A DNA stretch of 64,000 nt from assembly GCA_023150915.1 (NCBI GenBank), contig JAKLKA010000006.1, positions 1 through 64,000 on the forward strand, read 5' to 3'. This DNA comes from Polyangiaceae bacterium. GTDB lineage: Bacteria; Myxococcota_A; Polyangia; Polyangiales; Polyangiaceae. Position 1 is the first letter of the stretch. Each line of letters opens with the position of its first letter. Shown piece by piece: positions 5,379-34,775 of this stretch. The notes beneath the pieces were generated by a model. The model was not told the DNA's origin. It ran no database searches and saw nothing but the letters and a program-made list of their open reading frames with translations. A program made the position numbers and the translations under genes.

Positions 5379-6464
5379 TCACGGCGAGACGCCCAGGCTG
5401 GACGCTTTGACCCAGAACTGGCCGTCGCCGTGGGGTGCCACGTTCAGCACCTTGGGCAGCACGCTGGCCCAGCCCGCGACGATGTCGAGCACGTACACCT
5501 CGGCGCCGGACTCGAGCGTGCCGATGACCTTGCCCTTGTCGCTGGCGCTCGATCGGATCTCGAGGTCCTTGGGCGCGGTGGCCGAGTTGGCGTTGCCGCC
5601 AAGCTTCAGCGTCGGGGGCACGCGCCGGGTGGTGGCCGCCGGCTGCGAATCCTGCGTTTCGCCCTTGGGCAGCGCCTTCAGGTCCTTGGCCCGCGCCCAG
5701 GCGTCGATCACCACGTCCGAGTGATGCAGCAGGTGCACCCAGCCGCCCTTGCTCTCGGTGCTCCACAGCACGATGCCGTCGCTCGCGGAGTCCGGGCTCA
5801 ACATGGTGATCAGGCTCCGGCCGTCGTCGCCGCTGTCGTAGAGCTCGACGTCCTTCTTGGCGACGTAGGCCCGAGCGTTGCCCGCCGGCGACCAGCCGCT
5901 CGGCGTGGACGCCGAGAGCGCCAGCGCGTCGCACTCGGCCCAGCCCGTGAAGGCCTGGCTGAAGGGCGACCCCACCTGGCGCTTCACGCGCAGCTTGCCG
6001 CTGCCCGCTTCGATCACGCTCACCTCGCGCTGGGCGGCGATCATCACGTGGCTCTTGACCACCGACACGCTCTTGGTGGTGAACACCGGCAGGCGCTTGG
6101 CGTCGATGAAGCCCTCGATGCGGAAGCCGCCGGTGCCGGTGCCGCCGCCCGCGCCAGTGCTGGCGCTGGTCTTGATGCGAACCCGATCGCCGCCGCCCGC
6201 GTAGAACTCAGACGCCGTCAGGCCGACCTTGGCGCCGGTGAGCCGCGCGATGGCGCTGCCGCCGTCGGCCTTGTCGTAGATCAGTGTGTCGATGGCGGGC
6301 AGCGTGCTGCCGCTCAGCGTGCAGCCAGCCGGTTTGGCGTCGGCCGGTTTGGCGTCGGCCGGTTTGGCGTCGGCCGGTTTGGCGTCGCCCGCGTCAGCAG
6401 GGGCGGGCAGAGCCACGAGAACGGCCAAGAGCGCGACGGCGGCGGTCGCCCGGACGGAAAGCAT
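5379..6464 (-). CDS. Secreted SH3-like domain protein
   Basis: About 361 residues from ATG 6464. A signal peptide (MLSVRATAAVALLAVLVALP, cut near the ADAG) is followed by four AKPAD-type repeats and then a region with no family I recognise. Near the C-terminus LEIRSSASDKGKVIGTLESG, then VYVLDIVAGWASV and a Phe-Trp-Val-Lys element resemble a bacterial SH3 (SH3b) domain, as used in cell-wall binding proteins. It is transcribed away from the DHH-like gene at 6537, with 72 bases between the two starts, so the promoters are shared in that gap. Confidence 0.7.
   Translation of the reverse strand: MLSVRATAAVALLAVLVALPAPADAGDAKPADAKPADAKPADAKPAGCTLSGSTLPAIDTLIYDKADGGSAIARLTGAKVGLTASEFYAGGGDRVRIKTSASTGAGGGTGTGGFRIEGFIDAKRLPVFTTKSVSVVKSHVMIAAQREVSVIEAGSGKLRVKRQVGSPFSQAFTGWAECDALALSASTPSGWSPAGNARAYVAKKDVELYDSGDDGRSLITMLSPDSASDGIVLWSTESKGGWVHLLHHSDVVIDAWARAKDLKALPKGETQDSQPAATTRRVPPTLKLGGNANSATAPKDLEIRSSASDKGKVIGTLESGAEVYVLDIVAGWASVLPKVLNVAPHGDGQFWVKASSLGVSP
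6328..6387. repeat. Four tandem 15 bp coding repeats
   Basis: Four near-identical copies of GCCGGTTTGGCGTCG, which on the minus strand encode the AKPAD-type linker just after the signal peptide of the SH3-like protein. In-frame 15 bp units can expand or shrink without breaking the gene, so linker length is likely to vary between strains. Confidence 0.85.
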
Positions 6465-25817: not shown

Positions 25818-26303
25818 GTGAGTGTACGTCTGGCCTCTGTTGGCCTCTGTCTGTGGGTGCTCGTCGGGTGTGACTCGAACGGGCGCGCCGCCAACGCGCC
25901 GACTGAGCGCGCGCCGGCCGCCAGCGCGGTGGTCGTGCCGAGCGCGCCACCCGCCGACCCTGCGCCGGCCGTCGACGCAGCCGCAGCCGCGCCTGCGGCG
26001 CCCGCACCCTATCCTGCGGAGGCCATCGAGCGCGCGCGCCGTGCCCACTCGGGCAAGGCATGCCAAGAGCTGGTCTACAAGAAAGGCTGCGCCGAGACGC
26101 GCACGGGTCGGGTGAAGGTGCGCCTTGGGCTTGGCAGCGGCGGCAAGGTCGAGGGCGTCGAGATCGTCGAAAACGGCGTCAAGCGCGATCCCGACGTGGT
26201 CGAGAAGTGCCTGAAGACGAAGCTGCCCGAGTGGGCGTTCGACCCGCCGGACGGCGCCGTGCCCAGCGTCGAGCTCGACCTGGTGTTTGCCGACAAGTGC
26301 TGA
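25818..26303 (+). CDS. TonB-like C-terminal domain lipoprotein
   Basis: 161 residues from GTG 25818. LCLWVLVGCDSN predicts a lipoprotein, then a Pro/Ala-rich spacer, then RTGRVKVRLGLGSGGKVEGVEIVENG ... KCLKTKLPEWAFDPPDG, which resembles the TonB-type C-terminal fold (AgmX/PglI-like in myxobacteria, linked to gliding or envelope structures). Four Cys residues around the domain suggest a disulfide. It ends 53 bases before arsD and is probably unrelated to it in function. Confidence 0.65.
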   Translation: MSVRLASVGLCLWVLVGCDSNGRAANAPTERAPAASAVVVPSAPPADPAPAVDAAAAAPAAPAPYPAEAIERARRAHSGKACQELVYKKGCAETRTGRVKVRLGLGSGGKVEGVEIVENGVKRDPDVVEKCLKTKLPEWAFDPPDGAVPSVELDLVFADKC

Positions 26304-26356
26304 GGCGGGCTCGACCTGAAGTTGGAGCTACACTGCCGATAACCGAAAGGGAAACC

Positions 26357-26734
26357 ATGTCCGTCACCGTCCGTGTCTTCGACCCCGCCCTGTGCTGCTC
26401 CACCGGCGTCTGCGGGCCCAGCATCGACTCCGATCTGGCGCGCTTCGCGGCGGATCTGGACTGGCTGAAGCAGCAAGGCGTCGTGGTCGAGCGCTACAAC
26501 CTGGCGCAGCAGCCCGGCGCCTTCGTCGAGCACGCCGAGGTCAAAGCGGCGCTGTCGCGCGGCAACGAGGTGCTCCCGTTGATCCTGGTCGGCGATCGAA
26601 TCGCGGTCGAGGGCTCGTACCCGTCGCGTGAGACGCTTGCCGCTCTGGCCGGCGTCGTGGTCCGGAAGCTCCCGGTCGCCAGCGGGTGCTGCGGCCCGAG
26701 CAGCGACGGCAAGACCAAGACCAGCTGCTGCTGA
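26357..26734 (+). CDS. arsD: Arsenite metallochaperone ArsD
   Basis: 125 residues from ATG 26357 with AAAGGGA upstream. ArsD takes As(III) or Sb(III) and hands it to the ArsA ATPase. The N-terminal CCSTGVC (Cys 12, 13 and 18 in the usual numbering) is the binding site; SGCCGPSSDGKTKTSCC at the C-terminus holds two more vicinal Cys pairs. It is followed closely by arsA, arsC and an arsM remnant. Regulation: I saw no ArsR gene in the window. Confidence 0.95.
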   Translation: MSVTVRVFDPALCCSTGVCGPSIDSDLARFAADLDWLKQQGVVVERYNLAQQPGAFVEHAEVKAALSRGNEVLPLILVGDRIAVEGSYPSRETLAALAGVVVRKLPVASGCCGPSSDGKTKTSCC

Positions 26735-26745
26735 GGAGTCGTCGC

Positions 26746-28440
26746 GTGGAATTCCTGGAGCACGCCCCGCGGAACCTGCTCTTCACCGGCAAGGGCGGCG
26801 TGGGCAAGACCAGCGTCGCCTGCGCGACGGCCGTGGCCCTGGCCGAGCGCGGGCGGCGCGTGCTCCTGGTCAGCACTGACCCGGCCTCGAACCTGAGCGA
26901 GGTGCTCGAGACCGAGCTCGGCTCCGCGCCGCGTGTCATCCCTGGCGTCGCCGGGCTCTCGGCGATGGACGTCGATCCGGAAGCGCTGGCCCACGCCTAC
27001 CGCGAGCGGCGGGTCGGTCCGTACCGGGGCGTCCTGCCCGACTCGGCAGTGCGCAGCATCGAAGAGCAGCTCTCGGGCGCGTGCACGGTCGAAATTGCGG
27101 CCTTCGACGAGTTCGCGAAGCTCTTGGGCGGGCAGGCCGCGGAGTGGGACCACGTGGTCTTCGACACCGCACCCACGGGCCACACGCTGCGCTTGCTCGA
27201 GCTGCCCGCTGCCTGGGCGGACTTCCTCGAGGCCAGCGCGGGCGGCACGTCGTGTCTCGGGCCGCTGGCGGGGCTGGAAGCGCAGCAGAAGCTCTATCAA
27301 GCCACGCGCGCTGCGCTGCAAGACCCGACCGTGAGCGCGCTCTATCTGGTCACCCGCGCCGACGGCGCTGCGCTGCGCGAGGCGGCACGGACCCAGGGCG
27401 AGCTCGCGGAGCTCGGGGTCGGGTGCCGCGGGCTGATCGTGAACGGCGTGTTCACCGCCCAGGCACCGAGTGATCCGCTGGCGCAGGCGCTGCAGGCAGC
27501 GCAACGTCGCGCGCTGGCCGAGATGCCCATGGGCCTGCAAGGGCTGCCGCGCGCCGAGCTGCCGCTGGTCGCCGGCGCCTTGCTCGGCACCCAGGCCTTG
27601 CGCGGCTTCTTTGGCAGCGCCCCGGTGGCAGTCGCCCCGAGCCCGAGCGAGATCCCCGCGCTGCCCGGGCTCGCCGATCTGTTGCCCGCCCTGGAAGCCA
27701 GCGGCCGCGGTGTGGTCATGGTCATGGGCAAGGGCGGCGTGGGCAAGACCCGCCTGGCAGCGCGCATCGCTCGCGAGCTTGGGCGGCGCGGTCACCCGGT
27801 GCAGCTGACCACGACCGATCCGGCGGCGCACGTCGCCGAGGCGATGGGCGAGGCGGCTCTGAACGTCACGGTGAGCCGCATCGACCCCGCGGTCGAGACG
27901 CGGGGCTATGCCGAAGAGGTGATGCGCACGGCCGGCGCCGCGCTGGACGCCCCCGGCCGCGCGCTGCTCGAAGAAGAGCTGAAGAGCCCGTGCACCGAGG
28001 AAATTGCGGTGTTTCGCGCGTTCGCGCGCACCGTGGACGCGGGCGAGCGCGGCTTCGTGGTGATCGACACCGCACCCACCGGCCACACGCTGCTCTTGCT
28101 CGACGCGGCCGAGTCGTATCACCGGCAGGTCGCGCAGGTTGAGGGCAGCGCCCCCGAAGAAGTGCGGCGCCTCTTGCCGCGCCTGCGCGATCCGGCGTTC
28201 ACCAAGATCGTGCTGGTCACGCTGCCCGAGGCGACGCCGGTGCACGAGGCCGCGGCCCTCGACCGCGACCTCGGGCGCGCTGGCATCCGCCCGGTGGCGT
28301 GGGTGATCAACCAGAGCCTCGCGCCGCTGGCACTGACCGACCCGGTACTGCTGGCGCGCCGCGCCGCCGAAGGCCGGTTCCACGCCGAGGTGAAGGCGCT
28401 GGCCCCGCGCGTCGCGCTGGTGCCGTGGGAGCTGGCATGA
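26746..28440 (+). CDS. arsA: Arsenite-transporting ATPase ArsA, tandem form
   Basis: 564 residues from GTG 26746, 11 bases after arsD. Two GKGGVGKT P-loops (near residues 15 and 328), each with a DTAPTGHTL signature, show the duplicated two-domain ArsA form. Cys residues in SGACTVE and KSPCTEE lie where the metal-binding site is known. ArsA normally energises ArsB, an arsenite permease, yet no permease gene is visible here. The stop overlaps arsC by four bases. Confidence 0.95.
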
Positions 28441-28889
28441 GCGCGGCCGGGCTGCCGGGCAAGAGCGAGAGCATCCTGTTCTTGTGCGTCGCCAACTCTG
28501 CCCGCAGCCAGATGGCCGAGGGCCTGGCTCGCAGCATCTTTGGCGATCGCGCGGCCGTGCAGAGCGCCGGCAGCGAGCCTTCGGTGGTGAACCCCTGGGC
28601 CATCGAGGTGATGCGCGAGGTGGGTGTGGATCTGAGCAGCCATCGCTCGAAGTCCGTGCAGAGCATCGACCCCGAGACGGTGGACACGGTGATCACGCTC
28701 TGCGCGGAGGAGGTGTGCCCGGCGTTCCTGGGCAAAGCGCGGCGCCTGCACTGGCCCATCCCCGACCCGGCCAGCAAGGACGCGAGCGTGGGCCCGGCCG
28801 AGATGCTGGCGCGCTTTCGCACGGCCCGAGACACCCTTCGCGAGAAGCTCGAGCGCTTCGCGCGGGAAGAACTGGGAGACCAGCAATGA
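28437..28889 (+). CDS. arsC: Arsenate reductase, low-molecular-weight phosphatase type
   Basis: 150 residues from ATG 28437, overlapping arsA (ATGA). The [10 protein letters not shown] loop has the C-x5-R of the phosphatase fold and gives the first catalytic Cys. The pair in LCAEEVC supplies the second and third Cys of the thioredoxin-coupled cascade, as in the pI258-type enzyme. Reduces As(V) to As(III), the substrate for the ArsD/ArsA pair. LHWPIPDPA is the Asp-Pro element near the end. Confidence 0.95.
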
Positions 28890-29161
28890 CCAACCTATCG
28901 GACGATCGAGTGCGCTCCCAGGTGCGCGATCAGTACCGCAAGGTGGCGCGTGGTACCGAGCCGGGCTGCTCGCCGGGCTGCTGCCGTCCCGGGCCCAGTG
29001 CGAGGCGTTCCGCGTGCTCGGGCCTGGCGGCCGCCAGCGTCGAAACGCTGACAGCGCTCTTGCACGTCGCCGGCTTCACTCAGATCCGCGTACGGAGCGG
29101 AGCATCGGTCCGGGTCGAGCCGGGCGTGTCGGTGAGCGTGTCGCGGCTTGAATCGAGCTGA
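28886..29161 (+). pseudogene. arsM: Arsenite methyltransferase with internal deletion
   Basis: A 91-residue frame starts at ATG 28886, overlapping the arsC stop. Residues 1-35 (RVRSQVRDQYRKVARGTEPG, then CSPGCC) are the N-terminus of ArsM-type methyltransferases. The end, TLTALLHVAGFTQIRV, is their C-terminal strand-helix. The SAM-binding core that should lie between, more than 150 residues, is missing. The remnant cannot be a methylase. A small Cys-rich protein with some other arsenic-related role cannot be excluded. Confidence 0.6.
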
Positions 29162-29261
29162 TGGACCGCTGAGGGAGCGCTGATGCCCTGCTCCAGCACG
29201 GCGCCCGAGCGCGCCCTAGCTTGGGGCTGCGAGTCGCCCAATCGACCGCCTGGAGGAGTGA

Positions 29262-29687
29262 ATGAAACGAGTGATACTCATCTCGAGTGCCCTTGCTTTG
29301 ACGCTTGGCTGCGAGCGCGCGTCCGAGCAGACGAACACGCTGACCGAGCTCCCGGCCCAGGGACTGGCTGCGAAGAGTGAGAAGCCTCCCATCAAGCCCG
29401 ACAAGCTAGGCGCCGTCGACCTTGCGGCGAAGGGCGGGGTCACGATCCCCGTCGCGCCCGGCAACCTTGCCGGCAAGAGCGAGGACCCACCCAAGGAGAA
29501 GCCCGAGAAGCCGCCGGAGAAGCCCACCAAGCTCGTCGGTGGCCAGGCGCTCGCAAGCAAGCACGTCGAGAAGCCTCCCATCAAGCCCGACAAGCTGAAT
29601 TCAGTGAGCGTCAAGGGCGCAGCGACTGGGGTCAACTTGGCCGGATCCAAGACGCCCGGAGCCATGCCCCCCAAGCCGCAGATGTGA
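29262..29687 (+). CDS. KPP-repeat lipoprotein after the ars operon
   Basis: 141 residues with a strong ribosome site (GGAGG, five bases before ATG 29262). MKRVILISSALALTLGC is a lipobox signal. The mature part is low in hydrophobics and rich in Lys and Pro, with the unit SEKPPIKPDKLGAV repeated in altered form three times. It has no Cys outside the lipobox and no family I know. It is 100 bases past the arsM remnant and ends in a bidirectional hairpin. Confidence 0.7.
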   Translation: MKRVILISSALALTLGCERASEQTNTLTELPAQGLAAKSEKPPIKPDKLGAVDLAAKGGVTIPVAPGNLAGKSEDPPKEKPEKPPEKPTKLVGGQALASKHVEKPPIKPDKLNSVSVKGAATGVNLAGSKTPGAMPPKPQM

Positions 29688-29739: not shown

Positions 29740-30768
29740 TCAATCGCGACCGAGGCCTAGATCCCGCAAAAGCTTGCCCGTCCCCGCGTCGAGCACCAAC
29801 AAATATTCCCCGACCGTGACGTAGACTCGCGCCTTGGTCGCGCTGAGCTGCGCGACGACGCCCGCCGACGCGTCGAGGGGTGAACGCCACAGCTCGGCCC
29901 CGCGCTCGGCATCGAGCGCGATGACTTGGGAGGCTGACCCCTTTGGATCCGTGCCCAGGATAATCAACCGCCCGGCCGCAAGATCGGCCGAATTAACGCG
30001 AAGCGCGAGCGGCACCGTCCACTTCGGAGCGGAGGTGGGGTCCGCGTGGCCGCGCACCGTCGAGTCCGAGCCGAAGGCCACCACGTGGGCGCCGTCGGTG
30101 AGCGCCATGCGGACCTTGTCCCCGTGCACGGTCGCGGGATCGATGGCGCGTGCCGAGGTCATCGTGCGCTGACAAATCCTGCGCCCAGCCAAGGGTTGGA
30201 CCTTCCCCGTGGCGAGGTCGGCGGCGAGTGGGGCGTCGGCGCGCTGCGTCTCCACGACGAGCGGCGCGTCCGCAGAGTCGCCCGCACACACCTGGCGCGC
30301 TGCCGGCAATTGGAGCTTCGACTGTACCGCGCCATCGCGCAGGCCGAGCACGATCCCCCCGCGGTGCTCGTTGACGAGGAGCCGCTCGCCCTGAAGGCCA
30401 AATTGCACCAGGTTGCCCCCGATCGCGCGATGAATCACGATGGGGCCGTGGCGCCAAATCACTCGCCCGCTCTTGCCGTCGAAGGCGCCCAGGTACATCC
30501 CACCGGGGTCGCGTCCCGCGTAGACGCCGATGATGTCCTCGAGCCCGTCGCCGTTCACGTCGCGAGCGATGGGCGCCGTCCCGTCCCAAGCCTCGATCAC
30601 GTGCGCCGCGTCCGAGTGCCCACCTCTGAGCACGCGGATCCACTCGCCGCCCCTGTACGCCCCGAGCACCACTAGACCGACGCCTACGATCCCGAAGGTC
30701 AAGACCAGCGGCTGCAGCCCGGGGCCGATCCCGCGGCGGGTGAGCCATTTGATTCCGTCGTCGCTCAT
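29740..30768 (-). CDS. Membrane-anchored PQQ/BamB-like beta-propeller protein
   Basis: 342 residues. A transmembrane helix near residues 20-40 (LVLTFGIVGVGLVVLGA) anchors a periplasmic domain. The repeats MYLGAFDGKSGRVIWRHG, VIALDAERGAELWRS and LLVLDAGTGKLLRDLG are PQQ-type beta-propeller blades, and DVNGDGLEDIIGVY is FG-GAP-like. The blades suggest binding of a ligand or protein. Neighbouring regulator genes do not point to a function. Confidence 0.75.
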   Translation of the reverse strand: MSDDGIKWLTRRGIGPGLQPLVLTFGIVGVGLVVLGAYRGGEWIRVLRGGHSDAAHVIEAWDGTAPIARDVNGDGLEDIIGVYAGRDPGGMYLGAFDGKSGRVIWRHGPIVIHRAIGGNLVQFGLQGERLLVNEHRGGIVLGLRDGAVQSKLQLPAARQVCAGDSADAPLVVETQRADAPLAADLATGKVQPLAGRRICQRTMTSARAIDPATVHGDKVRMALTDGAHVVAFGSDSTVRGHADPTSAPKWTVPLALRVNSADLAAGRLIILGTDPKGSASQVIALDAERGAELWRSPLDASAGVVAQLSATKARVYVTVGEYLLVLDAGTGKLLRDLGLGRD

Positions 30769-30882
30769 GCCAGTAGTTCAGCAGCGGAGGGCCTCGACAG
30801 CCTCAGCGCTGGGGCAGCGTATCCTCAGCATCACCCGACGAGCTGGCGAACCGGCCGCGCGCGGCCATATGCTTGGCCGGCG

Positions 30883-32352
30883 ATGGGGCTTTGCTTGCGT
30901 TTCGGTGAGTTCGAGCTGGACGAAGCGCAGTTCGAGCTCAGAAGGGCCGGGAAGGCCGTCGAGCTGCAGCCCAAGGTGCTGGACCTGATCCTCTATCTGG
31001 CCAAGCACCGCGAGCGCGTGGTCCCGAAAGAGGAGCTCTTCGACACGGTGTGGAGGGGCGTCGTGGTGACGGACGCTTCGCTGACCCAAGCGCTGAGCCT
31101 GGCCCGCCGCGCTCTGGACGACACGCCCGAGACGCAGCACACCCTGCGCACCGTTCGCGGCAAGGGGGTGCGCTTCGTGGCCGAGCTGTCGGCCAGCGGC
31201 GCCCCCGCGGTCGAAGCTTCGGCATCGCGCCGCGTGGCGCGGCCGTCCACCTGGAGCGACACCGCGGCTCGTTCGAGCACCGCCGCCGAGACCCAGGACG
31301 ACCCTGCGGCCGTCGCCGGACCGGGGGATGCAGACGAAACCTTCCTGTTCGTAGTGCTGTCGTGCGACGCCCCGTTGAGCGGCGGCTCGCGTCACTCGCT
31401 GGCGGGGGTGAACGAGGTGGTGTTCACCCGCGGTTCGAGGCGCGCGGCTGAGCGCTCGCGAGCTGGCGAGCTGGTCTTGAGCCTTCCGGGCAACGCGCTC
31501 TCGCGCCGCCATGCGCGCCTGACCCGTGCTCGAGACGGCTGGCTGCTCGTGGACGAGGCCTCGAAGAATGGAACCTTCCTCGACGGTGAGCGGATCTCGC
31601 AGGCGGCGCTCGAGCTCGGAGCGTGGGTCGAGTGCGGTCGCACCTTCCTCTGCCTGGGCACGGGGCGCATGCCGGCGAACGGCGCACGCGACCTCGATTC
31701 GGAGCAAGCGCCCACCGGCTGTGTACCCTCCATCACCCCGAGCGGCGAGTCACTTTCACGAAGGCTGCAGGGCCTCGCCGCCAGCGATTTGCCCATGTTG
31801 CTGAGGGGAGAGGCGGGCGTAGGCAAGTCCCACACGGCGCGGGTCGTCCACCAGCACTCGGGTCGCGCAGGACGCCTGGTGTCGATCGACGCGCTGCTGG
31901 CGAGCGCATCCAGCGATCTGCTGGCCGCCCTCGAAGCGGCCCGGGGCGGCACGCTGCTGATCGAGAATCTGGAGCGGCTCTCCGATGTTGCCGCGTCGTC
32001 GCTGATGATCGCGGCGGCGGAAGAGCCGCAACGCGCCCGGCTGTTGGCCACGACCACGCTGGACGCCGAGGCCTTTGCGCGCGGTGTGTCGCGACCGCTC
32101 GCGACGCGTTTCGCTCTGCAGTGCGAGCTGCCAGCGCTGCGCGATCGCAGGGTGGACCTGGGAGCGCTGCTCGCCGCCGTGCTGCGCGAGCGAGCTGCGG
32201 CGGTTCAGCTGGACCCGAAGGTCGCGCGTGCGTTCCTGCGTCACGCATGGCCGGGAAACCTGACCGAACTGGCTCAAGGGGTGAGCGCGGCGCTCGCCGT
32301 GGCACGAGCGCCGACTATCCGGCTCGGTGACGTGCCGTTCTGCCTGGCGTGA
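30883..32352 (+). CDS. Winged-helix / FHA / AAA fusion regulator
   Basis: 489 residues from ATG 30883. Residues 1-100 are an OmpR/PhoB-type winged helix with the order seen in CadC-like activators (FGEFELDEAQFELRR, then VVPKEELFDTVWRG, then LRTVRGKGVRFV). An FHA domain follows near 190-270 (NALSRRHARLTRA, then DEASKNGTFLDGERI), a phosphothreonine-binding fold. A short P-loop AAA domain comes next (LRGEAGVGKSHTARVV near 310, then a Walker B-like LLIENLERL). GAFTGA is missing, so contact with sigma-54 is not expected. It converges on a Ser/Thr kinase operon with four bases between, so the FHA may read that kinase. Confidence 0.8.
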   Translation: MGLCLRFGEFELDEAQFELRRAGKAVELQPKVLDLILYLAKHRERVVPKEELFDTVWRGVVVTDASLTQALSLARRALDDTPETQHTLRTVRGKGVRFVAELSASGAPAVEASASRRVARPSTWSDTAARSSTAAETQDDPAAVAGPGDADETFLFVVLSCDAPLSGGSRHSLAGVNEVVFTRGSRRAAERSRAGELVLSLPGNALSRRHARLTRARDGWLLVDEASKNGTFLDGERISQAALELGAWVECGRTFLCLGTGRMPANGARDLDSEQAPTGCVPSITPSGESLSRRLQGLAASDLPMLLRGEAGVGKSHTARVVHQHSGRAGRLVSIDALLASASSDLLAALEAARGGTLLIENLERLSDVAASSLMIAAAEEPQRARLLATTTLDAEAFARGVSRPLATRFALQCELPALRDRRVDLGALLAAVLRERAAAVQLDPKVARAFLRHAWPGNLTELAQGVSAALAVARAPTIRLGDVPFCLA

Positions 32353-32355
32353 GGA

Positions 32356-33318
32356 TCAGAAGCTGAGCTCGGCAGACGCCCGCGCCCCGTCAGCGGCGAG
32401 CCCAAGCCCCGGCTTCACGCCGCCCGCTCGGGGTGCTGCGGGCCGAGTGAGGTAGAGCGCGCCGGCGCCGATCAAGCCGGCAGCGCCCACGCCGAAGCCG
32501 ACGCTGGACCAGGTCGCGGCGCGGCGCGCGTCTTGATCCAGCTCCACCCCGCGCGCGGTGGGGCAGCGCGCGTCGGGACAGACGGCGTCGCGGTCCTTCG
32601 CCAGCGACATCGCCCGCAAGCCGAAGTAGCTGCCCGCCGCGACCCCGACCACGCCGACACCGGCGGACAGCCAGAAGAGCGGCGTCCGCGCGTCCGCGCG
32701 CTCGTCGGCGGCGGGCGGCGTAGGACGCGGCGCCACCGGTGGCGCTGCCAGCGGCTCTTGCCGCGGCTGAGCGACGGGCTCGGCGTCCAGCTCCACTCTG
32801 CCGCCACCCGTCAGCACATGATCGCGGCGCCAGGGGACGTGACCGGGCGCACTGAGCTCGACGCGGACCGAGCCGGCGAGCACGCGCAGCGGCTTGCCGA
32901 GCGGCAACGGCTCTCCGTTCACCTGCAGGCTGGCGCCGGGGGTCGCACAGCGCACCTCCAGCGTCGCGAGTTGCTTGGCCACGATGCTCAGCGCCAAGCT
33001 GAGCGCCCCTCGGTTCTGTTCGACCCAAGGGTCCCCGTCGCTGGCAAGCGCCCGCTTCAAGTGATCCTCGGCCTCGACGAAGAGACGCAGCGACTTGGCA
33101 GCGAGACCCATCTGACCCACGGCCCGCGGCGAGGGTGCGACGGAGTTGGCTTGACGGAATCGCTCCAGCGCGTCGCTCTCGCGCCCTGCCAGGCGCAGCG
33201 CCACGCCTTCTTCGATCAGCGCCTCGGCACGTGCTGCGGCGTCGACAGGAGGCGGCGCTTCTGCCACGGCTCGAGCGGCAACCAAGAAGAGAGCGCAGGC
33301 CAGGGTGAGTGCTTTCAT
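32356..33318 (-). CDS. TPR and PEGA-like protein in a kinase operon
   Basis: 320 residues with signal MKALTLACALFLVAARA. ALIEEGVALRLAGRESDALERF is TPR-like; the segment ATPGASLQVNGEPLPLGKPLRVLAGSV resembles a PEGA domain. A transmembrane pair near the end (SAGVGVVGVAAGSYFGLRAM and a later segment) suggests envelope location. It overlaps the stop of the kinase gene by four bases (ATGA), a pairing common in myxobacteria. Confidence 0.75.
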   Translation of the reverse strand: MKALTLACALFLVAARAVAEAPPPVDAAARAEALIEEGVALRLAGRESDALERFRQANSVAPSPRAVGQMGLAAKSLRLFVEAEDHLKRALASDGDPWVEQNRGALSLALSIVAKQLATLEVRCATPGASLQVNGEPLPLGKPLRVLAGSVRVELSAPGHVPWRRDHVLTGGGRVELDAEPVAQPRQEPLAAPPVAPRPTPPAADERADARTPLFWLSAGVGVVGVAAGSYFGLRAMSLAKDRDAVCPDARCPTARGVELDQDARRAATWSSVGFGVGAAGLIGAGALYLTRPAAPRAGGVKPGLGLAADGARASAELSF

Positions 33319-34697
33319 CGGATGATGGGTACCCCGTCGGCATCGAGTCGCGGCGGAGGTGGCAAAGGCGGAGGCGCCGCGGATGCGACCGCATGCGGGC
33401 GGACGGGGTGATGCCGCTGTCGTGGCGCGTCAGCCCGGCTCGGGCTCGGTGCGCTCGGCGCACTGGGCGCGGGCAGCGCCTCGACGGGTATGCGGGCGGC
33501 GGCGGAGGGCGGGACGCGTGCCGGCGGGGTGAAGCGCGCCAGCCCGTGCCCGAGTCGAGCGACCTCGCCGGCACGGGCCCAGAGAATCGCCGATGCCACG
33601 GCGATCAGCCCAGCAACAGCCGGCAGAACACCCCGCCGCCAAGCAATGCGTCGAGTCGACGTGCCGACCGTGGTCGACAAACCCGCATCGGTTTCCGTCG
33701 CCGCCGCGGCGTCCGGCACGGGTCGCTTCGGGCCGGTGGCGCCGCGCGCGACGGGCGACTCGAAGGCCTCCGCGCGCTCTGCTGCCAGGCGCCCGCGTTT
33801 GCCCGAGAAGGGCGCCAGGCGCCGCGCGAGCTCCGCGACGCTGGGGATGCGGTCCTCGAGTCGTTTGGCGAGCGCGGCCTCGAGCACCAGGTCGAGCTCG
33901 CTCGGGATGCCGCGCCCGCGCAGAGACGCAGGCGGCGGATCGGCCGCGAAGACCGCGCGGGTCACGTCCGCGACGCTGTCGCCGGCGAACGGCTGCTCAC
34001 CCGTCAGCAGCACATACCCCGTGACGCCCAGCGCCCACACATCGGTGCGCACGTCGACGCTGCTCGGATCACGCAGCTGCTCGGGCGACATGAAGTGCGG
34101 CGAGCCCAGAAGCGCGCCGGTCGCGGTCGCAGACGTGCCGGTGTGGGTTTCCGCAGCCGGCACCGGTTCATCGGCGACCGTGGCCAGCTTCGAGATGCCG
34201 AAGTCGAGCACCTTCACAGAGCGCTGCTGCGCCGCCGTGTGTGCGTAGAACAGGTTGGCCGGCTTGAGGTCACGATGGACGATGCCGAGCGCGTGGGCCT
34301 CGGCCACGCCGACGCACGCCTCCAGCAGGCAGTCCACGGCCTCTTCGACGGGCAGTGGGCCCTCATCGGTCAGCGTGGCGAGATCGCTGCCGTCCAGGTG
34401 TTCCATCACGATGAAGGGAACGTCGTCGTGGAAGCCGATGTCGAAGACGCGCACCACGTGATCGCTGCTGAGAGATTGCGCCGCCTGGGCCTCACGGATG
34501 AAACGCCGATGCGAGCTCGCCGAGCAGCGGCGCATGAACTTGATGGCGACCTGCTTGTGGAGCAAGAGGTGCTCCGCTTGCACCAACGTTCCCATGCCGC
34601 CCGCGCCGAGCCGCTCGCCCACGCGATACTTGCCGGCGACGATCGTGCCCTCCGGCGGCGGGTCCGCCAAGACCGCGCCATCGCCCACGACGGTCAT
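33315..34697 (-). CDS. Ser/Thr protein kinase with C-terminal transmembrane helix
   Basis: 460 residues from ATG 34697, with a closer start chosen over 34742 because MTVVGDG opens the catalytic lead. The N-terminal Gly-rich loop (GERLGAGGMG), Lys in VAIKFM, catalytic HRDLKPANL, DFG as LDFGISK, and SPEQLRD in place of APE are all present. A transmembrane helix near 360 (LPAVAGLIAVASAILWA) separates it from a Pro-rich tail. It is an active-type eukaryotic-like kinase. Targets are unknown; the FHA regulator next door is a candidate. Confidence 0.92.
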   Translation of the reverse strand: MTVVGDGAVLADPPPEGTIVAGKYRVGERLGAGGMGTLVQAEHLLLHKQVAIKFMRRCSASSHRRFIREAQAAQSLSSDHVVRVFDIGFHDDVPFIVMEHLDGSDLATLTDEGPLPVEEAVDCLLEACVGVAEAHALGIVHRDLKPANLFYAHTAAQQRSVKVLDFGISKLATVADEPVPAAETHTGTSATATGALLGSPHFMSPEQLRDPSSVDVRTDVWALGVTGYVLLTGEQPFAGDSVADVTRAVFAADPPPASLRGRGIPSELDLVLEAALAKRLEDRIPSVAELARRLAPFSGKRGRLAAERAEAFESPVARGATGPKRPVPDAAAATETDAGLSTTVGTSTRRIAWRRGVLPAVAGLIAVASAILWARAGEVARLGHGLARFTPPARVPPSAAARIPVEALPAPSAPSAPSPSRADAPRQRHHPVRPHAVASAAPPPLPPPPRLDADGVPIIR

Positions 34698-34775
34698 GCG
34701 CGCAGCGTAACCCCACCCACCGCCGGTGGCGAGCCCCCACACTGCCGGCCCTGCCGTCTGCTATGCTGCGGCGCC

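Follow-up and report, generated by a model that had tools for sequence, protein, structure and literature searches.

FHA-domain enhancer-binding proteins (EBPs) of Myxococcota carry an FHA domain followed by an AAA+ domain of the sigma-54-activator type, and in Polyangia they are kinase-linked. Those of M. xanthus were reportedly treated by Jelsbak et al. in 2005. Rhodobacter and Caulobacter NtrC and VpsR retain a receiver-type input and a C-terminal helix-turn-helix (HTH). An ATPase activity of the mycobacterial regulator EmbR is said to be reported in the title of a cited paper. According to PMC4601284, EmbR has a winged helix and an FHA domain and is activated through PknH, so that winged helix, FHA and kinase function as a switch. 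EBPs without GAFTGA, namely Rhodobacter and Caulobacter NtrC and VpsR, have been reported at sigma-70 promoters, and R. capsulatus NtrC requires ATP binding, not hydrolysis (PMC10274813). We analysed a window of 64,000 nucleotides (the whole stretch, contig JAKLKA010000006.1 of a Polyangiaceae bacterium) and describe here a regulator gene in which a winged helix, an FHA domain and a degenerate AAA+ domain are joined and which faces a Ser/Thr kinase operon. Coordinates are collected in Table 1.

The regulator is encoded by an open reading frame (ORF) of 489 amino acids, with a coding-like third-position guanine-cytosine content of 0.83. A sequence-only reading of the locus had proposed the order winged helix, FHA, AAA, and this was confirmed, as all four Pfam families scored above their cut-offs: Trans_reg_C at residues 23-98 (49.2 bits, cut-off 26.2), FHA at residues 200-243 (39.2 bits, cut-off 20.7), Sigma54_activ_2 at residues 290-399 (48.3 bits, cut-off 25) and AAA_lid_14 at residues 420-486 (31.0 bits, cut-off 27). 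The protein therefore has an OmpR-type head and the AAA+ sigma-54 interaction fold. The closest solved structures in a PDB sequence search were CadC for the head and the AAA+ domains of FlrA, ZraR, NtrX and FleQ for the tail. The head thus belongs to the same domain family as that of CadC/OmpR-type one-component regulators, whereas other winged-helix ORFs that we met matched the regulator in the head only and had other, often much larger, C-terminal parts. An AlphaFold2 model was built from 3 sequences. Since its mean predicted local distance difference test score (pLDDT) was 66 and its predicted template modelling score 0.40, the domain arrangement in it is unreliable. In secondary structure the model agrees with a winged helix of the OmpR type, followed by an FHA sandwich and by an AAA+ core that has a lid; confidence is low at residues 104-149. 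The top Foldseek matches of the model were the AAA+ domains of FlrC, NtrC1 and VpsR, in line with the fold given by Pfam. The protein stops at the lid, and its Pfam matches up to E 0.1, 10 families in all, include neither a C-terminal Fis-type HTH nor, behind the head, a BTAD domain. EmbR differs from it in being a SARP with a BTA domain in between, in having its FHA domain at the C-terminus, in having no AAA+ domain of this kind and in its descent.

The AAA+ domain has lost motor residues, while the residues of the FHA pocket are kept. We use AAA+ and FHA motif names and roles in their established sense. In the window regulator the GAFTGA loop is deleted, as the sequence-only reading had noticed. 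Walker B reads TLLIEN, with Asp changed to Glu and the catalytic Glu to Asn, and the sensor II Arg is replaced by Thr461 (NLTEL). Arg183, Ser207, His210 and Asn229 are retained; we take them to be the phosphothreonine pocket of the FHA domain. We compared the five proteins that have the full order, below called triples, with 54 other FHA-AAA rows, which were chosen by similarity and not at random. A GAFTGA-type loop was present in 0/5 triples vs 50/54 other rows, the Walker B catalytic Glu in 0/5 vs 51/54, and the Walker B Asp and the sensor II Arg each in 1/5 (genome G119) vs 54/54. The Walker A Lys was present in all five triples and in all 54 other rows. The FHA Ser, His and Asn were found in all five triples and the FHA Arg in the four that were readable there. 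The G119 triple looks like an intermediate in motor loss, as judged from its motifs: its loop is shortened and Walker B reads Asp-Gln, but it has both Arg fingers as well as the sensor II Arg.

GAFTGA, the sensor II Arg and a Walker B reading DE are found in nearly all canonical FHA-EBP rows, whose sequences continue beyond the lid into the region of the C-terminal HTH; the window regulator, in contrast, lacks all these features and has gained an N-terminal winged helix. Three defining features were looked for and none was found, therefore the protein does not belong among the sigma-54 EBPs. It resembles Rhodobacter and Caulobacter NtrC and VpsR in the deleted or altered L1 loop, and in the case of VpsR also in fold, but has FHA input and an N-terminal winged helix in place of their input and output domains. 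Our literature searches, in which coverage of subscription journals was thin, returned no description of the winged helix-FHA-AAA architecture and, in full text, no paper on GAFTGA together with FHA. Apart from the triples, we observed a separate FHA-AAA lineage (L017, L023, L030) that has neither GAFTGA loop nor Walker B Glu and in which no N-terminal winged helix was seen; loss of the loop thus also happens alone.

The order is rare. It was found, among the matches listed and by alignment of first members, in 5 of 183 genomes of the order and in the same five of 317 genomes of the class (the window's genome, G022, G111, G028 and G119), so that the proposed domain order does recur, in four further genomes. 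A further phylum sample of 377 genomes (273 outside the class) gave no new triple among the matches listed, nor was one seen among those of the two listed congeners of the window's genome (G001, G002). We scored 8 candidates per genome in the order set and 4 in the class and phylum sets, best rows only, and a divergent triple could therefore escape detection. The coverage of other phyla consisted of a scan with a winged-helix peptide pattern, which gave 24 loci, two of them known triples and the rest head-only matches. The reading frame is open over its full length in four genomes. The G119 triple is split across two contig ends (model positions 2-194 and 194-492), and its unity is inferred for this reason.

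A tree built from 59 FHA-AAA rows grouped the window regulator with those of G022, G111 and G119 (support 98/93), and canonical FHA-EBPs of G132 and G139 were the sister of this clade (93/92). The G028 triple grouped with other canonical EBPs. A single origin of all five triples was rejected (forced monophyly, approximately unbiased test, p = 0.0002). The poorly resolved winged-helix tree of 43 rows agrees, with the five as one clade in 0/200 bootstraps, and therefore the fusion arose at least twice. By sequence, the FHA-AAA half of the window regulator descends from canonical, kinase-linked FHA-EBPs, and G028, in which the same motifs were lost, represents an independent second instance. The architecture is real and rare, and it is a variant of FHA-EBPs that works on paper like EmbR. 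Because of this descent and this EmbR-like working, the earlier phrase "regulator of a new type" was too strong.

We consider it somewhat better than an even chance that the window regulator is a kinase-linked, FHA-gated regulator which is derived from an FHA-EBP and is independent of sigma-54. A membrane kinase and its TPR-like partner would sense an envelope signal, and the kinase would phosphorylate itself, Thr residues of the linker, or both. The FHA domain may then read the resulting phosphothreonine, and its docking may alter dimerisation or spacing so that the winged helices occupy 11-bp repeats. The bound regulator would act on the housekeeping RNA polymerase at its own promoter and at that of a divergent envelope gene. 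The AAA+ domain, in which Walker A is intact (GEAGVGKS), may at most bind nucleotide and would serve as an oligomerisation module, not as a remodelling motor. Descent, domain order, motif losses, the retained pocket and a conserved upstream element are the parts that the analysis shows; phosphorylation, DNA binding and sigma use we infer.

The upstream element (GCCTCAGCGCTGGGGCAGCGTATCCTCAGCATCACCCGA) is a likely operator of the regulator, going by its conservation. It lies 45-83 bp upstream of the regulator start, in a 114-bp intergenic region shared with the divergent PQQ-like gene. In a three-way ungapped alignment with the upstream regions of G022 and G111 the summed identity was 78, vs a shuffled mean of 58.8 (sd 2.3, max 67; 0/300 as high). 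Pairwise, the best values were 26/39 for the window and G022 and 25/39 for the window and G111, each above all 60 shuffles. Since G022 and G111 are congeners, part of the likeness between their own upstream regions may be due to descent. Direct repeats of about 11 bp, arranged in tandem, mark the targets of OmpR/PhoB-type winged-helix DNA binders; here the 11-bp periodicity was uneven, with significance at lag 11 for G111 alone and at lag 22 for the window, more weakly for the other two: at lag 11, shuffles were as high in 0/500 cases for G111, 81/500 for the window and 283/500 for G022, and at lag 22 in 21/500, 5/500 and 26/500, respectively. With a unit matrix derived from G022 and G111 only, without the window site, the element ranked first in the 64 kb; three units scored 19.2 vs a maximum of 18.8 in 60 shuffled windows, and the four-unit matrix gave 18.8, under the shuffled maximum of 20.5. 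An operator common to four genomes was rejected, as the G119 upstream region does not match.

Some neighbouring genes give a guess at envelope targets some support, because lipoprotein-like or envelope genes adjoin arrays or regulators in the window, G111 and G022. In G022 and G111 the gene divergent from the regulator is a lipoprotein-like Peptidase_S8. A second array in the window scored 16.9 with the matrix, within the shuffled maxima, and lies 65 bp before the lipoprotein-like gene. G111, whose genome has a triple, also contains a five-unit 11-bp array (L238 3407-3461, C209) approximately 80-130 bp ahead of the gene for a Gly-rich lipoprotein. Separately, in G119 (L239, C570) we observed an 11-bp repeat array at 5849-5891, at the 3' end of an FHA-like regulator and before the gene of a Cys-rich, secreted-looking protein.

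Several results weigh against the kinase-linked, sigma-54-independent reading. The 8.0 Mb genome of the window has at least 150 Pkinase matches; kinases being so common, adjacency alone is weak evidence. We did not observe a kinase within 9 kb of the G022 triple (20 kb examined), in the 9.7 kb before or the 0.7 kb after the G111 gene (11.9 kb examined), or on the 13.8 kb contig of the G028 triple, and in these three of the five triples the input must therefore come otherwise. The phosphosite enrichment before the FHA domain is modest. In canonical relatives the short segments that precede this domain are rich in Thr (10.8% vs 4.8% overall), and 21 of 39 hold a Thr-Thr-acidic pattern vs a shuffled mean of 14.8 (17/1000 shuffles as high), a count for which 19 of 58 rows were dropped. 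The element was not found upstream of the G119 or G028 regulators. A genome-wide regulon defined by pattern was rejected, and a regulon is thus not shown, as counts were near those of reversed-pattern controls in most genomes; in the first count they were 30 vs 15 in G111 and 31 vs 23 in G119, and in the second not clearly higher. The window's own site was the only match of 15 in its genome with 0 mismatches.

The first two of these results also favour the strongest alternative, that the adjacent kinase and the regulator are not partners, that the FHA domain reads phosphothreonine from other kinases or another signal, and that proximity is a relic. We regard it as unlikely, although with a share of probability that cannot be called small. 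In the operon that the sequence-only reading had described as facing the regulator, a TPR-like gene and a kinase overlap by 4 bp (ATGA) and are both directed toward the regulator, whose ORF ends at 32352, while the stop codon of the convergent partner starts at 32356. As kinases are abundant, control regions were used for the neighbourhood counts. When 12.4-kb regions were taken with a canonical FHA-EBP in the middle, 16/20 held a kinase, compared with 6/20 control regions from other places in these or similar genomes (Fisher p = 0.004), the canonical regions being best matches on long contigs, close relatives included, and thus not independent draws. Within 2 kb the counts were 14/20 and 4/20 (p = 0.004), and within 300 bp 7/20 and 2/20, which was not significant (p = 0.13). 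That controls also contain kinases fits the alternative, but the same convergent kinase-TPR pair accompanies the G119 triple (kinase 42% and TPR partner 37% identical to those of the window), and the pair is also found, in other gene orders, beside canonical FHA-EBPs of G132, from the sister group, and of G043.

Further, the trees of kinase and regulator agree for four genomes. In the kinase tree, for which 34 of 40 collected rows were used, the window, G119, G132 and G139 form a group (95/86), the same as in the regulator tree. One clade for the four module kinases of the window, G119, G132 and G043 was unsupported, as the G043 kinase falls outside. When the TPR partner is compared with G119 and G132, the copy adjoining the FHA regulator is the best match in both. 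For the kinase, the best match is the module kinase in G119 and lies on the contig of the FHA-EBP in G139, while the module kinase of G132 ranks fourth. Among the 42 distinct kinase C-termini compared, four have a G-x-P-I tail beyond the membrane segment. All four belong to the modules of the window, G119, G132 and G043 (L063, L101 and L103 besides the window), and the tail was first spotted in these kinases and counted afterwards. Since the pair recurs with G119 and canonical relatives and is absent in three triples, the link is probably an ancestral one that two of the five triples have retained; judged in this way it is probably old but not universal. A linkage of kinase and regulator in relatives, as asked for by the sequence-only reading, was therefore seen for the G119 triple and for canonical proteins and not for three of the other four triples. 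The regulator orthologues of G022 (L060 11245-13746) and G111 (L062 6989-9469) have no kinase-TPR pair beside them, and in G119 another FHA-like regulator (by eye) is divergent from a kinase-TPR pair (L239 1842-7365, C570).

The intact Walker A of the window regulator also allows that ATP binding is the main switch, by analogy with the R. capsulatus NtrC cited above, with the FHA domain acting only as a tether. This appears rather improbable, as the Walker A of G028 reads GRPGAGKA, with the Ser/Thr replaced, and the FHA pocket residues are among the best-kept features. Slightly less probable again is a sigma-54 antagonist, in which the AAA+ domain would form mixed rings with canonical FHA-EBPs and poison them, having its own DNA tether. 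Other FHA-AAA proteins are present in the same genome, and the window regulator keeps Walker A together with Arg404 and Arg409 while motor residues are lost, a pattern possible for a dominant-negative subunit; the Arg finger residues, however, are retained in some triples and not in all. A decaying gene without function is very improbable: the loss of several catalytic residues and a long end branch (0.9 vs a median of 0.41) speak for it, but the frame is open in four genomes at 41-44% identity of the window regulator to G022 and G111 and 35% to G028, the upstream element is conserved, and losses are confined to the motor while FHA and winged-helix residues are kept.

For the kinase-linked regulator derived from an FHA-EBP, the linker before the FHA domain holds a stretch similar to the Thr-rich segments of canonical relatives. 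The proposed arrangement of Thr-rich linker and FHA domain resembles the self-binding switch of GarA and OdhI. A wider reading, to which we give somewhat less than an even chance, is that kinase-linked FHA-EBPs were repeatedly converted to sigma-54-free regulators. An N-terminal winged helix would have been captured, the C-terminal HTH and the sigma-54 loop lost, and the AAA+ domain would have decayed to a pseudo-ATPase, and phosphothreonine signalling would thereby have moved from sigma-54 to housekeeping promoters of envelope genes with 11-bp repeats. The swap, apparently made twice, shows how kinase-linked regulators can be rewired. As the sigma-54 machinery is removed and the phosphothreonine input kept, it is a natural experiment, made twice, that allows input parts and output parts to be tested separately for their roles. 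These genomes have more than 100 Ser/Thr kinase matches each and many FHA-AAA regulators, and assigned pairs of a kinase and an FHA-AAA regulator were not found in the literature searched; here a compact module offers agreeing kinase and regulator trees and a candidate operator.

Table 1. Features of the window around the regulator gene.
Feature	Position	Strand	Basis
Regulator gene, winged helix-linker-FHA-degenerate sigma-54-activator AAA+ with lid	30883..32352	+	Pfam, PDB sequence search, AlphaFold2, Foldseek
OmpR/CadC-type winged helix, residues 1-104	30883..31194	+	Trans_reg_C 5.6e-13; CadC 5ju7 9.9e-12
Linker, disordered, Thr/Ser-rich, N-terminal to FHA; putative phosphosite region	31195..31335	+	pLDDT <50 at 104-149
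FHA domain, residues 152-261	31336..31665	+	Pfam FHA 9.5e-10, residue table, alignment
AAA+ domain and lid, residues 285-486	31735..32340	+	Motif table, Pfam
TPR-like partner gene, 320 amino acids	32356..33318	-	Weak TPR_2; G119 homologue
Hanks-type Ser/Thr kinase, tail ends DGVPIIR	33315..34697	-	Pkinase 2.7e-37 (129 bits), kinase tree, tail comparison
Operator-like element, 11-bp direct repeats	30800..30838	+	Ungapped alignment with regions upstream of the G022 and G111 regulators; matrix rank
Second, weaker array, four 11-bp units, tentative	29153..29196	-	Second best window site, within shuffled maxima
Divergent gene, 342 amino acids, PQQ/BamB-like propeller, membrane-anchor-like start; candidate target	29740..30768	-	PQQ_2 3e-8
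Small lipoprotein-like gene, 141 amino acids, candidate second target	29262..29687	+	ORF; start read from sequence

The TPR_2 match of the partner gene was sub-threshold (20.1 bits, cut-off 27). By eye, this gene has a signal-peptide-like start and membrane-like C-terminal segments, and the kinase has one C-terminal membrane-like segment. The first ATG of the kinase is at 34697, where the interval of the sequence-only reading also ends, and an alternative, longer GTG start is at 34742. Near the regulator, at approximately 26300-28890, there are three consecutive Ars-like proteins, which, from their translations, we take to be ArsD-, ArsA- and ArsC-like.

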